From NCBI GenBank assembly GCA_011052815.1, contig DRIG01000048.1:1-44918 (forward strand): a stretch of DNA of 44,918 nt. Reading direction: 5' to 3'. This stretch comes from a candidate division WOR-3 bacterium (GTDB lineage Bacteria; Hydrothermota; Tepidihabitantia; SM23-42). A program made the position numbers and the translations under genes. Below the pieces are notes generated by a model, which was given only the letters and a program-made list of their open reading frames with translations, was not told the origin of the DNA and made no database searches. Positions 440 through 6,304 of the stretch are shown here, piece after piece. How positions within the stretch are numbered: the first letter of the stretch is position 1; each line of letters starts with the position of its first letter.

Positions 440-1636
440 CTACTTATATCTCCCTCTAAACGGTCTGAACCTGACGCCGTTTTCGTACTGGGGCAGAGTC
501 ACAACCGGTTCAGTAAGAAAGAACCTTCCCGCCTCAATCCATTCCTTCAGGATCCGGCAGATCTCCACTGCCTTTGGATAACTTGAAATCGGATAGGTCG
601 GCACCTTACGATCTTTGATGGTAATCACCCCGCTTTTCAGTGAATGATAATCAACCTCTGATATCACTCTATCGATTGCTTCAGGATAATCATAGGAATA
701 ATCGGCCACCGGTGCAAGAATATCTCTGTCAGTGACGCAGGTATGCTTCAGAATCTCCTGATCAAGTATGGGGATGGGAATACCGATTCCCACGGTAAGG
801 CTGACTCCCTAGCCGACGATTGAAGTACCCCTCAACCATTCAGGCTTCATCTGTTTAAGGTCCCCGATCACAGCGATGGTGCCGGCACCGGATTTTGGAA
901 TCCCCTTTTCATTTCGGGATACCGCGGGATCATGCTGGGTTCCATGCCATGCCACATAACCGACACCACCCGCTAAAAATATTCTCGTACCGAGTCCGAT
1001 CGTTCGATAATAAGGATCATTGAGCAGGGGTGAAACCTGACCGGCTGAACAATAATTTGCATTACCCAGATCCGGGTTCAAAGGACCCATATAGGTATAT
1101 ATCGTTTCCCTGCCGGTATTCACCGCCACATTGTAGTTCTGATAGCAGTTGCGGGGGTTAAAGAGAAAAGCGTCGTTAATTTCATCAATCGTGAAGCTAC
1201 CCAACAGTTCCTTCCTGGGATATTCATCAGTTCCGTATGAAGACGCCTTGAGTTCAATCCTCTTGCCGGCGACAAGATCCTCAATCAAATGACCACCGTC
1301 GTATTTAAAGGAGCGTGGAGATCGGGTGTTCACCAGGATATCATCAGAAATCCGGGTCGCTCCGATATAGAGATCGACCGCAGCGAGGCCGCAACATGCC
1401 TCCACGCCGTTCAACCATGCCTTAGTGATTTTGATCTTCGGTTTGGTGTGACCCAAATTCAAAAAAACACCGGATGAGCACATCGGACCGAATGTACCGG
1501 TTGTCACCACGTCTATCTTTTTCGCAGCGTTTTTCAATCCTTGTTCTTTTACAACATCGATGATCTCTTCGGCGGTACAGACGATCGCCTTACCTTCTTT
1601 TATCTTTTTGTTGATCTCTTCAATGGTCTTTGCCAT
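440..1636 (-). pseudogene. COG1900/DUF39 homocysteine biosynthesis protein interrupted by an in-frame TAG
   Basis: One continuous frame of 398 codons runs from ATG at 1636 to TAG at 440-442 and is broken only by a TAG at 809-811. The part before the TAG has 275 codons; the part after has 122 and resumes in the same frame with GVSLTVGIGIPIPIL, a strongly conserved DUF39 stretch. There is no frameshift. Family members normally have an aromatic residue, often Tyr, at the TAG position (from memory), so one base change from TAT or TAC would explain it. Cys53 in TFGPMCSSG and a Cys in NPRNCYQNY are kept, as expected for sulfur chemistry. ATG 1636 is chosen over GTG 1642 because the GTG lies inside the Shine-Dalgarno AGGAGGTG. 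No C-terminal CBS domains are present. The gene may be recently inactivated, read through, or a consensus error of the assembly. Confidence 0.85.
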
Positions 1637-1689
1637 ATTCACCTCCTGTTTTTATAATCTACGAAAAGCCGGAGGTGATGAGTGAATTA

Positions 1690-1722: not shown

Positions 1723-1734
1723 CTTTAGAGAACA

Positions 1735-1827
1735 CTCATCTCTCCCTTTTCGGGCGGGAATTGGCACCCGCCCTGAGCGGGTTGCCGAGGCGTCATCGGG
1801 CCCGTTCCCTCGACCTTTCTTGATGAG
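1735..1827 (-). promoter_or_regulatory. SAM-I (S-box) riboswitch aptamer
   Basis: Read on the minus strand, the segment starts CTCATCAAGAAAGGTCGAGG, continues with the core GGCCCGATGACGCCTCGGCA, has GGTGCCAATTCC in P3/J3-4, and closes with AGATGAG. P1 is CTCATC (1827-1822) with GATGAG (1740-1735). All invariant SAM-I landmarks are present: GAGGGA, GGCCC..UGA, CC..GGCAACC, GGUGC.AAUUCC. Downstream lie a terminator and the homocysteine operon, so high SAM should stop transcription of homocysteine synthesis. This is a direct sequence match to the consensus I know and leaves little doubt. Confidence 0.95.
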
Positions 1828-1855
1828 ACTCAACTTTTCAAAGAACAGATTATTT

Positions 1856-2358: not shown

Positions 2359-2461
2359 AATCAAATTCAGTCAAACTTGACTTTTTGATTATATTTACTA
2401 TAATTACAATAAAAAATAGAAAAATGATGATTGAAGATGGAGAAGTTCGACCAGAGGGAGG

Positions 2462-2486
2462 TATATACGAACTATGTTCGGATATA
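2462..2486. other. Inverted repeat with a direct-repeat copy, upstream of the first cassette
   Basis: TATATACGAAC (2462-2472), 3-base loop, GTTCGGATATA (2476-2486): 10 of 11 pairs. A second copy of gttcggatata follows at 2516-2526, just before the GTTATAC box, and could pair with the same left arm. It may be what is left of an attC upstream of the first cassette, but no convincing R'' box is seen. Confidence 0.4.
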
Positions 2487-2531
2487 TCGAAAAATTGGAG
2501 GGATATGCGAAATGAGTTCGGATATAAACAA

Positions 2532-2538
2532 GTTATAC
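2532..2538 (+). other. Integron core site (R'-type GTTATAC), left boundary of cassette 1
   Basis: GTTATAC fits the core-site pattern GTTRRRY loosely. Together with following bases (GTTATACGCC) it is the exact reverse complement of GGCGTATAAC at 3012-3021, the R'' region of the attC that ends this cassette. In a circular cassette R'' must complement the cassette's own 5' end, so this pairing independently defines cassette 1 as about 2533-3082. Confidence 0.65.
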
Positions 2539-2642
2539 GCCATTGGATGAAAAGGGAAATAGGATTATGCTTAGCGATTTTATATTAATTGCAGGGATTT
2601 CTGAATATCATTATCTGGAAGTGCTAAAAGAAAGGAGGAGAT

Positions 2643-2999
2643 ATGAAACCTCGTAGCCTAATTACATTCATTTTCGGAATAACCTTAGTTGTAATTGGTG
2701 TAATTTTGATCATAAAAATCGGATGCCCAATTCCAGTGATTGTTGGAGGTGCACTTTGTTATTTGGGTTGGAGTGGTGGTCGCACCGCTACTATCCTCTT
2801 TGGTCATACCTGTGTCGTACTTGGCTGTTACTTGATTACTTGGGGAATGTATCTATTGCCACACTGGAAACCGACTCCAACATACATCTTCGGGCGACCA
2901 CTTTTTTGGGGATTTTTTTCGCTTATGGGTGGTATATGTGCAATTTACCACGGGTTCTGCAAGTGTATCGGTGGACAAAGAGATGCGAAAAATAAATAA
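2643..2999 (+). CDS. Small four-helix membrane protein of unknown function (cassette 1)
   Basis: A 118-residue protein starts at ATG 2643 after a strong Shine-Dalgarno (AAAGGAGGAG). Four hydrophobic segments are visible, at about residues 7-27, 29-46, 50-71 and 84-104, with a basic, Cys-containing tail (CKCIGGQRDAKNK). I recognise no family. It is the only gene between the core site at 2532 and the attC at 3012-3088 and reads in the direction usual for cassette genes. Composition is more AT-rich than the operons at 1 and 8 kb. No promoter of its own is seen. Small integral membrane proteins of unknown function are common cassette cargo. Confidence 0.75.
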   Translation: MKPRSLITFIFGITLVVIGVILIIKIGCPIPVIVGGALCYLGWSGGRTATILFGHTCVVLGCYLITWGMYLLPHWKPTPTYIFGRPLFWGFFSLMGGICAIYHGFCKCIGGQRDAKNK

Positions 3000-3011
3000 A
3001 AGTGAACCAAC

Positions 3012-3088
3012 GGCGTATAACACGGTGTTTGTGGCTCACTTCGTTCGCCCAAATGCTTCGCACTTCACAAACACCGAAACCGTTAGCC
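3012..3088 (+). other. attC site 1 (integron cassette recombination site)
   Basis: R'' is GTATAAC (3015-3021) and R' is GTTAGCC (3082-3088), so TAAC pairs with GTTA and flanking CGGC with GCCG. The inner arms CGGTGTTTGTG (3023-3033) and CACAAACACCG (3066-3076) pair over 11 perfect bases. Arms are separated by a short unpaired spacer on each side and a variable loop rich in 'cttcg'. This is the standard architecture of an attC folded as a single-strand hairpin. It sits 12 bases after the membrane-protein gene and 29 bases before the next gene. Confidence 0.82.
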
Positions 3089-3116
3089 GAAACAATTTAA
3101 TGGAGGTAGGTAATTT

Positions 3117-4217
3117 ATGAATTCAAGGGAAATGCCAAAATTAAAGATAGGCGAACTTGAGGCTAAAATACCAATTGTTCAAGGCGGAATGAGTGTTGGT
3201 ATCTCTTTGTCAGAATTAGCTTCGGCTGTGGCGAACGAGGGTGGTATTGGAGTTATTGGTGCTGCTGGGATTGGTATGATTGAATCCGATTTCAGTACAA
3301 ATTTCAAAGAAGCAAACAAAAGAGCATTGAGAAAAGAAATAAGAAAAGCAAAGGAAAAGACGAACGGCATTATTGGAGTCAATATAATGGTTGCTCTCTC
3401 AGATTTTGATGAGCTTTCGCTTGTGGCAGTAGAAGAAGGTGCAGATCTGGTTTTTCTTGGTGCAGGGCTTCCACTAAAGAATCCAAAAACATTATCATTG
3501 GATAAATTGAGAAATGTTTCTACAAAGGTTATCCCTATTGTGTCTTCTGCAAGAGCTGCTAATATTATATTTCAATATTGGGCAAGGAATTATAATCATG
3601 TTCCTGATGCTGTAGTTGTTGAGGGACCTTTAGCTGGAGGGCATCTCGGTTTCAAAAAGGAGCAAATAAATGATCCTAATTATACATTAGAGAAAACACT
3701 CTCTGAGGTTATTTTAGCAATGAAAACTTTCGAGCAACAATTTAATAAAAGTATTCCAGTAATTGCCGCAGGAGGCATATATACTGGGGCAGATATTTAT
3801 AAAGTTGTGCAGCTAGGAGCTCACGGAGTGCAAATGGCAACCAGATTTGTAGCCACAGATGAGTGCGATGCAGATGTAAAATTCAAAAAGGCATATATAG
3901 AGTGTAAAAAAAAAGATTTAATTTTAATTGATAGTCCTGTTGGATTGCCGGGAAGGGCAATACGAAACAAGTTTCTTAATGATGTAGCAATAGGGATGAA
4001 AAAACCTTTTAAATGTCCCTGGCAATGTCTGAAAACCTGCGATTTTAAAAATTCACCATATTGTATTGCCCTTGCATTAATCAATGCCAAAAAGGGAAAC
4101 CTGGATGAAGGGTTCGCTTTTGCAGGAGCTAACGCTTATAGAGTAAACAAAATCGTCTCTGTTAAAGAATTGATTGAGACCTTATTGACAGAATATAAAG
4201 AGGCAACATTTATATAA
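3117..4217 (+). CDS. Nitronate monooxygenase family flavoprotein (cassette 2)
   Basis: A 366-residue TIM-barrel protein of the nitronate monooxygenase (2-nitropropane dioxygenase)/FabK family. Signatures: IPIVQGGMSVGIS near residues 19-31, GGIGVIGAAG near 42-51, EGPLAGGHLG near 168-177 with the catalytic-type His of the AGGH motif, and the FMN phosphate-binding IPVIAAGGIYTG and GVQMATRF strands. A Cys cluster in CPWQCLKTCDF near residue 300 is typical of the clostridial-type branch. These enzymes bind FMN and oxidise alkyl nitronates; FabK relatives are enoyl-ACP reductases, so the substrate is uncertain. The start has a Shine-Dalgarno GGAGG at 3102. The gene is bounded by attC 1 and attC 2 and is AT-rich relative to its neighbours, consistent with acquisition as a mobile cassette. 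Confidence 0.88.
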   Translation: MNSREMPKLKIGELEAKIPIVQGGMSVGISLSELASAVANEGGIGVIGAAGIGMIESDFSTNFKEANKRALRKEIRKAKEKTNGIIGVNIMVALSDFDELSLVAVEEGADLVFLGAGLPLKNPKTLSLDKLRNVSTKVIPIVSSARAANIIFQYWARNYNHVPDAVVVEGPLAGGHLGFKKEQINDPNYTLEKTLSEVILAMKTFEQQFNKSIPVIAAGGIYTGADIYKVVQLGAHGVQMATRFVATDECDADVKFKKAYIECKKKDLILIDSPVGLPGRAIRNKFLNDVAIGMKKPFKCPWQCLKTCDFKNSPYCIALALINAKKGNLDEGFAFAGANAYRVNKIVSVKELIETLLTEYKEATFI

Positions 4218-4225
4218 ATTGCTTC

Positions 4226-4305
4226 GCCTAACACGGTGTAAAAGGCTTCGCTATGCTTCGCCCAAATTGCCTTCGGCAACTTCTTTTATCCGCAAGCCGT
4301 TATAT
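4226..4305 (+). other. attC site 2 (integron cassette recombination site)
   Basis: R'' is GCCTAAC (4226-4232, a perfect RYYYAAC) and R' is GTTATAT (4299-4305). The arms CGG-TGTAAAAG (from 4234) and CTTTTATCCG (4283-4292) pair with one or two extrahelical bases. The loop contains the sub-hairpin TTGCCTTCGGCAA. The R'' reverse complement GTTAGGCGA matches the start of this cassette (GTTAGCCGA, 3082-3090) at 8 of 9 bases, as expected for a cassette's own attC. Start is 9 bases after the nitronate monooxygenase stop. Confidence 0.85.
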
Positions 4306-4327
4306 AACATTGTGCATAGGAGGTAAA

Positions 4328-4504
4328 ATGGCTGATGATAAAGTGAATAAAAAAAACGAACCCTGTTGCAATGTTCCAGCAAGTGAAGAGACATCCATTT
4401 GCAGGGAATGCGGCAACAAAGGAAAATCTGTCAAAGATTATAGATTCTTTGATTATCTTGTTGCTTACACCCTGATGGTTGGTAAACTTAATGCCCTCTC
4501 GTAA
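4328..4504 (+). CDS. Small Cys-rich protein, possible CopZ-type zinc ribbon (cassette 3, truncated cassette)
   Basis: A 58-residue protein begins at ATG 4328 after AGGAGG. It has NEPCCNVPA and then CRECGNKGKSVKDY, a CC...CxxCGxxGKxV arrangement reminiscent of the N-terminal zinc/iron-sulfur domain of CopZ-like copper chaperones; this resemblance is from memory and weak. The following residues (FFDYLVAYTLMVGKLNALS) do not look like the rest of that domain, so the C-terminus may be altered. The gene starts 23 bases after attC 2, but no attC follows: the expected R'' (ATATAAC-like) is missing and a promoter for the next gene begins 42 bases downstream. The cassette therefore seems to have lost its 3' end. 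Confidence 0.55.
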   Translation: MADDKVNKKNEPCCNVPASEETSICRECGNKGKSVKDYRFFDYLVAYTLMVGKLNALS

Positions 4505-4545
4505 AAAGTGTAACCGAGGTGTGTTCATACTTGCAGGGGTGCGTC

Positions 4546-4573
4546 TTGACACAGTGACAAAATTCATTATTAT
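4546..4573 (+). promoter_or_regulatory. Promoter of the tldD-like operon
   Basis: TTGACA (4546-4551), 16-base spacer, TATTAT (4568-4573), about 24 bases before ATG 4598, leaving room for the Shine-Dalgarno AAAGGAGG at 4585-4592. It marks the end of the cassette region. Confidence 0.7.
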
Positions 4574-4597
4574 AAAAAAACTGAAAAGGAGGTTTAA

Positions 4598-6304
4598 ATG
4601 AAAAGATTTTCAACCGGAATATTTTCACTCGGAGTTTTACTCTTCATAACCTTCTCTTTTGCCCAACAGGAGAATATCCTCAAAGCGATGAAAGAAGAAC
4701 TGCATCGGTCATATAACGCCTTAAGCCGTGTAAAACCTGTTTCTCTGTATTTTCTGGAATATGAATTGTGGGATGAGTATAAAAAAGAAATCAGCGCCGT
4801 CCTCGGAGCTTTATATAATGACAGCGAAGAACGACATATCTACGCCGACATCGATGTCCGGGTGGGCTCGCCCAGACTCGACAATACGCATGAAATACGG
4901 GGGGGCACGGAACTGGACTTCCTCGACTGGATTCCATCGATTGTTGAAGTACCCGTGGACCATAACCCGCAAGCCCTCAAAGCGATTCTCTGGGCGGAAA
5001 CAGACCGCCGTTTTAAAAAGGCTCTGGAAAAATACACCAAGGTTCTCGCCGAAAAACAGGTTAAGGTCGTAGAAAGCGACACCTCACCGGACTTTTCCAA
5101 TGCATCGGCCCAGAAGTATTACGCCGACGACGTCGATATAACCCTGGATTTCAATCCCTGGAAAGAGAAGATCCGCCGCTTCTCTGAAATCTTTAAAAAT
5201 TTTCCCTGGATCTACAATTCTTATGTATCACTAAGCACAACGCTCCTTACAAAATATCTGGTGAACACCGACGGGACAGAGATCAAGGAAAACCGCCTCG
5301 CCTATCGCATCAGGATTTATGCTGCAACAATGGCTGACGACGGTATGGAGCTTTATCTCGTAAAAACCTTCTATGCCACGGATCCGGAAAGATTACCTGA
5401 TGATGCAACAGTATCCACGGCGATCGATTCATTGATTGGGCGCCTTGATGCACTGAGAAAGGCGCCTCTTGTCGAACCTTATACCGGACCGGCGATCCTC
5501 GTCAACGAGGCGAGCGGCGTATTCTTCCACGAAATATTCGGACACCGCATTGAAGGACACAGGCAGAAGAGTGAATTCGAAGGTCAAACATTCACCAAAA
5601 AAGTCGGCAAACAAATCCTTCCCTCTTTTATCTCGGTATATGATGACCCGACGATGAACTCTTTTGAAGGAACCGATCTCAACGGGTTTTACCGTTTTGA
5701 CGACGAAGGTGTTCCCGCTCATAAGGTGACCGTCGTGGAAAACGGAATACTTAAAAATTTCCTGATGAGCAGATCACCGATTGCGGGCTTTCCCGAATCA
5801 AACGGCCACGGAAGAAGATCGTACGGTCATCAGGTGGTTTCCAGACAAGGAGTGTTGTATATAAAATCGGATAAAGAAGTTCCGTTTCCTGAATTACGTC
5901 GGGCTCTGATCAATGAATGCAGGAAACAGAATAAGGAGTACGGATTGATTTTTTATGACATATCAGGTGGATTCACAAGTACGGGACGGAGTGGAACCCA
6001 GACATTCAAGGTCATTCCTCTCTATGTAAAAAGAGTTTATGTGGACGGACGGCCCGATGAAGTGGTTCGAGGAGTCGATATCGTCGGCACCCCCCTGCTT
6101 TCTTTTTCTAAAATTGAACTGACAGGAGATGACTACAAAGTATTCAACGGAACCTGCGGTGCTGAATCAGGCTGGGTCCCGGTCTCCGCCATATCGCCGT
6201 CGATCTTCGTTTCGGAAATCGAGGTCGAGAAAAAATCCAAAGGTCAGGAAAAACCACCCATCCTTCCGTCTCCGGTACAGAGTTCAAAAGAGAGGAGGCA
6301 GTAA
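4598..6304 (+). CDS. Exported TldD-like zinc metalloprotease
   Basis: A 568-residue protein with an N-terminal signal peptide (basic MKR, hydrophobic core to about residue 22, ending SFAQQ). The TldD/PmbA core follows, with the zinc site HEIFGHRIEGHR near residues 311-322 (HExxxH) and the third-ligand region NGTCGAESGWVPVS near residue 512, which keeps the Cys. Typical family segments DDEGVPAHKVTVVENG and SNGHGRRSYG are present. Cytoplasmic TldD acts with TldE as a protease on unfolded or leader peptides; the signal peptide here suggests a version acting outside the cytoplasm. The length exceeds E. coli TldD by about 90 residues, mostly N-terminal. The stop overlaps the next start (TAATG). 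The C-terminal EKPPILPSP tail is shared with the next protein. Confidence 0.9.
   Translation: MKRFSTGIFSLGVLLFITFSFAQQENILKAMKEELHRSYNALSRVKPVSLYFLEYELWDEYKKEISAVLGALYNDSEERHIYADIDVRVGSPRLDNTHEIRGGTELDFLDWIPSIVEVPVDHNPQALKAILWAETDRRFKKALEKYTKVLAEKQVKVVESDTSPDFSNASAQKYYADDVDITLDFNPWKEKIRRFSEIFKNFPWIYNSYVSLSTTLLTKYLVNTDGTEIKENRLAYRIRIYAATMADDGMELYLVKTFYATDPERLPDDATVSTAIDSLIGRLDALRKAPLVEPYTGPAILVNEASGVFFHEIFGHRIEGHRQKSEFEGQTFTKKVGKQILPSFISVYDDPTMNSFEGTDLNGFYRFDDEGVPAHKVTVVENGILKNFLMSRSPIAGFPESNGHGRRSYGHQVVSRQGVLYIKSDKEVPFPELRRALINECRKQNKEYGLIFYDISGGFTSTGRSGTQTFKVIPLYVKRVYVDGRPDEVVRGVDIVGTPLLSFSKIELTGDDYKVFNGTCGAESGWVPVSAISPSIFVSEIEVEKKSKGQEKPPILPSPVQSSKERRQ

Follow-up and report, generated by a model that had tools for sequence, protein, structure and literature searches.

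The window, which is the whole stretch of DNA analysed here (44,918 bp), is the entire contig C48 of a candidate division WOR-3 MAG (2.39 Mb in 111 contigs, 97.6% complete). Between an HcyBio gene and a TldD/PmbA-family gene it carries an insert, which consists of a promoter-like site, an attI-like site, two attC-bearing cassettes, and the beginning of a third cassette, which has no attC. The features are as follows:

440-1642, minus strand: HcyBio gene (homocysteine biosynthesis family, PF01837), left host flank
1733-1829, minus strand: SAM riboswitch (RF00162) in the HcyBio leader
2377-2404, plus strand: promoter-like site TTGACT-16-TATAAT (11/12 consensus matches), a possible cassette promoter upstream of attI
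2455-2541, plus strand: attI-like site, two dyads (2463-2487 and 2502-2526), then AAACAA followed by GTTATACGCC
2533-3082, plus strand: cassette 1, ends set by the R boxes GTTATACGCC and GGCGTATAAC; ORF 2643-2999 (118 aa, hydrophobic, no family in the Pfam search)
3012-3091, plus strand: attC of cassette 1 plus R' of the next cassette; 81 bits with our own covariance model, which was trained on this site among others
3083-4299, plus strand: cassette 2, R boxes complementary with one mismatch; ORF 3117-4217 (366 aa, nitronate monooxygenase family, PF03060, E 4e-56)
4223-4308, plus strand: attC of cassette 2; 73 bits with the same model, also a training site
4300-4504, plus strand: start of a third cassette without attC, beginning at GTTATATAAC after the second attC; ORF 4328-4504 (58 aa, no family in the Pfam search)
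4546-4573, plus strand: promoter-like site ahead of the TldD/PmbA-family gene
4598-6304, plus strand: TldD/PmbA-family gene (PF19289), syntenic in G002 and G008; with the promoter-like site it makes up the right host flank (4546-6304)

The gap between HcyBio and TldD is 2,955 bp in the window versus 310 bp in G002 and 541 bp in G008, two WOR-3 genomes of the same family, in which HcyBio adjoins TldD without an insert. A sequence-only reading of this DNA had proposed an integron cassette array at 2532-4515 and had named invariable synteny in relatives, with no empty site, as grounds for rejecting it; these two empty loci remove that objection. The cassettes within that extent stand, but the attI-like site was overlooked and the feature is larger, with the attI-like site, two cassettes and two attC sites spanning 2455-4308. 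As for the left flank, the HcyBio gene contains an in-frame TAG (809-811, minus strand) where the G002 and G008 homologues encode tyrosine, which is either a pseudogene mutation or an assembly error. Low-complexity tracts of repeated cccgtttctcccttt lie at 1920-2240, between the riboswitch and the attI-like site, and have no counterpart in the short spacers between the genes in G002 and G008.

Cassettes and their attC sites

The first R box, GTTATACGCC at 2532, is complementary to GGCGTATAAC at 3012 in all ten positions, and GTTAGCCGAA at 3082 is complementary to TTCGCCTAAC at 4223 in nine of ten, so the proposal that each R'' complements the 5' end of its own cassette holds for both. A test that combined a 10-mer R'' match to the own 5' end with a hairpin returned five hits in 136 kb of block-shuffled sequence and four sites in 353 kb of unrelated loci, compared with 32 reports in WOR-3 loci, where some sites were counted once per strand. 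In addition, at least five of the six outer R positions match in 22/34 consecutive site pairs; when the boxes within a single site are compared the figure is 7%, and for randomly chosen pairs it is 13%. The sites might otherwise be a dispersed palindromic repeat (MITE or REP-like) lying between genes, as their scatter across many contigs of WOR-3 genomes would suggest; since such a repeat is not expected to match the 5' end of the preceding segment, nor to have an attI at the array start, we regard this explanation as extremely improbable.

The R''/R' and L''/L' arms pair in both window sites, as had been proposed, and both helices covary over the 21 WOR-3 sites from which our covariance model was built. 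The model consists of a 4-bp R helix and an 11-bp L helix, in which 94.6% of the cells are paired (23-41% when the structure is slid), and its covariation score was reached by none of 500 shuffles. Sites outside the training set reach 79 bits, and two sites on contig C10 of the same genome score 68 and 63 bits. The model matches 67/147 WOR-3 genomes but only 1/119 genomes of a control phylum. Two further single attC sites of the window genome are located near contig ends, on C45 (30566-30661) and C81 (10887-10979).

The bottom strand folds better in 81 of the 87 unique attC sites, including the first window site (-14.3 versus -11.7 kcal/mol for the top strand) and the second (-12.1 versus -6.8 kcal/mol). 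The strict RYYYAAC box is found in only 30/87 sites and the GTTRRRY box in only 26/87. A distal hairpin, AAAY..RCTT, is present in 58 sites. In every one of them the third pair consists of A and C on the top strand, which corresponds to G-T on the bottom strand, even though the search demanded no letter at that position.

Homologues of cassette 2 occupy other positions elsewhere. In the window array the nitronate monooxygenase gene comes second, while homologous DNA directly follows the attI-like site in G128 (contig C264) and G010 (contig C94), and follows attC-like DNA in G016. This comparison is only suggestive of cassette movement, because no recognised attC was detected downstream of the copies at the attI-like DNA of G128 and G010; the G128 copy may be decayed, as its junction reads ACATTA instead of the expected GTTA. 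The third cassette of the window is decayed or truncated and has lost its attC, and the covariance model detected no further attC for it within the window.

The attI-like site and a recombinase without I2

The window array starts at the attI-like site, where the crossover is expected after position 2532. This site aligns with attI-like sites that follow recombinase genes in further WOR-3 genomes, as well as with a site on contig C10 of the own genome. Among 13 WOR-3 loci, the attI motif lies 9-156 bp past the recombinase stop codon in ten, and in two of the other three less than 200 bp of contig is left. The two dyads within one attI are more alike than dyads across attI (0/20,000 permutations, which ignore relatedness). 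The promoter upstream of attI would be expected to read the remaining window cassettes, although promoter-like sites around the array, including the candidate Pc at 2377-2404, are no commoner than in shuffled sequence.

The recombinases at these loci belong to one family, which an alignment search detected in 15/147 WOR-3 genomes, or 14 after G003 was set aside, where a transposase-like gene comes after the recombinase (L123/L295). They score above or near the cut-off of NF040815 and below the IntI cut-off of TIGR02249. The sub-cut-off TIGR02249 matches were ruled out as weak IntI, as they skip profile region 180-230, and an NF040815 match was dropped as a sole integrase marker, as that model covers archaeal XerA. 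Aligned with the solved VchIntIA (2a3v), 19 residues of the query face 61 of IntI, thus the I2 region is absent, and the spacing from KG to HxLRH is 59-69 residues versus 106 in IntI (measurable in 24 of the 28 extracted IntI). The missing piece is the region of about 40 residues that holds the I2 helix in IntI, so that the WOR-3 recombinases do not qualify as I2-helix integrases. A phylogenetic tree groups all I2-bearing enzymes in a single clade (100/100) and seven WOR-3 enzymes in a separate one (100/99), and Xer lies far away from both; among the I2-less lines, its branching order is compatible with IntI either nested inside them or beside them.

Most of these recombinases also carry an additional N-terminal domain, which was found in none of the extracted IntI sampled. 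Because a fold search with the full-length recombinase returned recombinases only, the domain was folded and searched alone (mean pLDDT 90). Its top fold match is the SMARCAL1 HARP domain 4o66 (probability 0.96, E 0.057), which was also its best natural PDB match in a profile search (E 0.067, likewise short of the cut-off). The best score against Pfam HARP (PF07443) is 20.6 bits, whereas the gathering cut-off is 25; for this reason the predicted domain is termed HARP-like only, despite 4o66 topping the fold matches. The similarity to SMARCAL1 is weak, and the fusion partner of the WOR-3 domain is a recombinase rather than a helicase.

No integrase gene is visible in the window, as the sequence-only reading had it, and a search for intI across the genome returned only XerC/XerD-like recombinases plus a stub on C10. 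This contig carries an attI and two cassettes whose R boxes match exactly; directly before the attI lies the 3' end of a recombinase gene, at most 29 codons of which match the C-terminus of the WOR-3 clade (best E 6e-8). Such a stub ahead of an attI indicates that the lineage of the window genome once had this I2-less integrase. A search for a comparable stub ahead of the attI-like site of the window found none, and no intact copy of the recombinase is present in the assembly, which is not closed; as the MAG is 97.6% complete, an unbinned integrase is possible. The coupling between sites and enzyme is also visible at the genome level, where attC occurs in 13/14 genomes with the recombinase versus 54/133 without it. 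Counting against the coupling, no recombinase of this family was detected in most of the attC-bearing WOR-3 genomes (54 of 67).

Taken at face value, the window is a CALIN, which is defined by at least two attC and no integrase: it has two attC sites and lacks an integrase gene. An ordinary CALIN would imply that canonical IntI with I2, encoded by other bacteria, made and moved the cassettes, which then ended up in WOR-3, with the I2-less recombinases as chance neighbours. CALINs are known to be widespread (PMC9668308), and canonical IntI is common in the phylum of the Ignavibacteria genome G189 (105/396 genomes). However, IntI above the TIGR02249 cut-off was found in 0/147 WOR-3 genomes, the sites form a WOR-3-specific family with conserved motifs of its own, the window array begins at an attI-like site that matches that of the I2-less recombinases, and the C10 stub documents integrase loss at a sister array, all of which make this origin quite improbable. 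The CALIN reading is therefore correct as to an integrase-less cassette array, but this is not a plain CALIN, because the array starts at an attI-like site that follows an I2-less recombinase gene in other WOR-3 genomes. We consider it likely that the window holds the attI end and the first cassettes of an integron that has lost its integrase gene, and that the cognate integrase would be an IntI-related tyrosine recombinase, usually with the HARP-like domain, which is set apart from canonical IntI by its missing I2 region.

Relation to canonical integrons and distribution beyond WOR-3

The WOR-3 arrays resemble canonical integrons in having an attI beside the integrase gene, cassette arrays, R boxes of the form ..AAC/GTT.., R-box complementarity within the own cassette, bottom-strand folding and an expected crossover between G and TT, and the closest solved structure of the enzyme is VchIntIA (2a3v). 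Unlike in canonical integrons, the integrase lacks I2 and mostly carries the HARP-like domain, the attI sits 3' of the integrase gene, which reads towards the cassettes, and the attC has an 11-bp L stem and the conserved distal AAAY..RCTT hairpin. The array belongs to an integron-like system and, as far as sequence can tell, behaves like an integron; it is not a member of the integrons by the strict definition, because an I2-bearing IntI is required. According to previous studies, I2 is the acquisition that enabled integron integrases and is found in no other protein (PMC7790495), and the insertion is not fully conserved in an integron-like subgroup, yet was called essential for integron function (PMC8138268). 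Open-licence PMC texts, preprints excluded, yielded no description of integrons in WOR-3 or of integrons without I2, so that the host range of integron cassettes is extended, as had been proposed, as far as that literature goes.

In the proposed mechanism, the I2-less recombinase would join the folded bottom strand of attC to double-stranded attI between G and TT. In place of I2, the choice of strand may come from the conserved distal hairpin, which would close with G-T on the bottom strand and meet an A-C mismatch on the top, and the HARP-like domain perhaps helps in this choice. Alternatively, the recombinases might act in the manner of Xer on double-stranded attI and attC-like sites, with the hairpin a by-product of palindromic core sites. 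A double-strand reaction is the default without I2, and the WOR-3 enzymes resemble XerA/NF040815 recombinases in their catalytic domain and in scoring above or near that XerA-type model. They differ from these in being coupled to attI and cassette arrays, in the extra N-terminal domain, and in a C-terminal SPLD motif common to IntI. Moreover, neither the covarying 11-bp L stem, which lies outside the core, nor the better folding of the bottom strand in 81/87 sites is needed for double-strand recombination, and we hold a Xer-like reaction to be fairly unlikely.

Beyond WOR-3, I2-less recombinases adjoin sites with cassette logic in 10 of 13 loci from the phylum of G189 (29 site calls in 141 kb), in G189 itself, in the Cloacimonadota genome G149, on Chryseobacterium and Rufibacter plasmids (Bacteroidota), and on one IMG/VR contig. 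Cross-use of sites by canonical IntI is possible in the phylum of G189, as canonical IntI is common there. It is conceivable, albeit somewhat short of an even chance, that an unrecognised class of integrons without I2 exists in WOR-3, Bacteroidota, Ignavibacteria and Cloacimonadota, in which the strand would be chosen via the bottom-strand hairpin and the HARP-like domain would dock the folded site, and within which IntI possibly originated. If IntI did arise within such a class, single-stranded cassette recombination would predate I2. A natural attI/attC cassette system without I2 would make the account of I2 as the founding innovation directly testable. The I2-less arrays of the relatives suggest that integrons are more varied than the textbook definition. 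Some of the numerous CALINs in taxa that lack IntI could be accounted for by this class, whose integrases could escape tools that rely on the extra IntI region for detection.

There may be consequences for the capture of resistance genes as well, because I2-less relatives of these enzymes are present on plasmids of Bacteroidota and, on Acinetobacter plasmids, immediately upstream of tet(X3). In plasmid pHH1107 (L400, 5043-7064), tet(X3) comes directly after an I2-less recombinase, 'TpnF', which shares 51% identity with a WOR-3 integrase, and an attI-like dyad with GTTATGTGCC. On the attC side, the site that follows tet(X3) was rejected as attC, since it is too damaged. A BLASTN search of the first window attC against plasmids returned only a 22-bp match, and a pattern scan of viral contigs was uninformative, as chance matches were estimated to dominate. 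On the IMG/VR contig, which is filed as viral (L318, IMGVR_UViG_3300000568_000548), an I2-less recombinase is accompanied by five or more cassettes, each with an R'' box that matches the 5' end of the same cassette.
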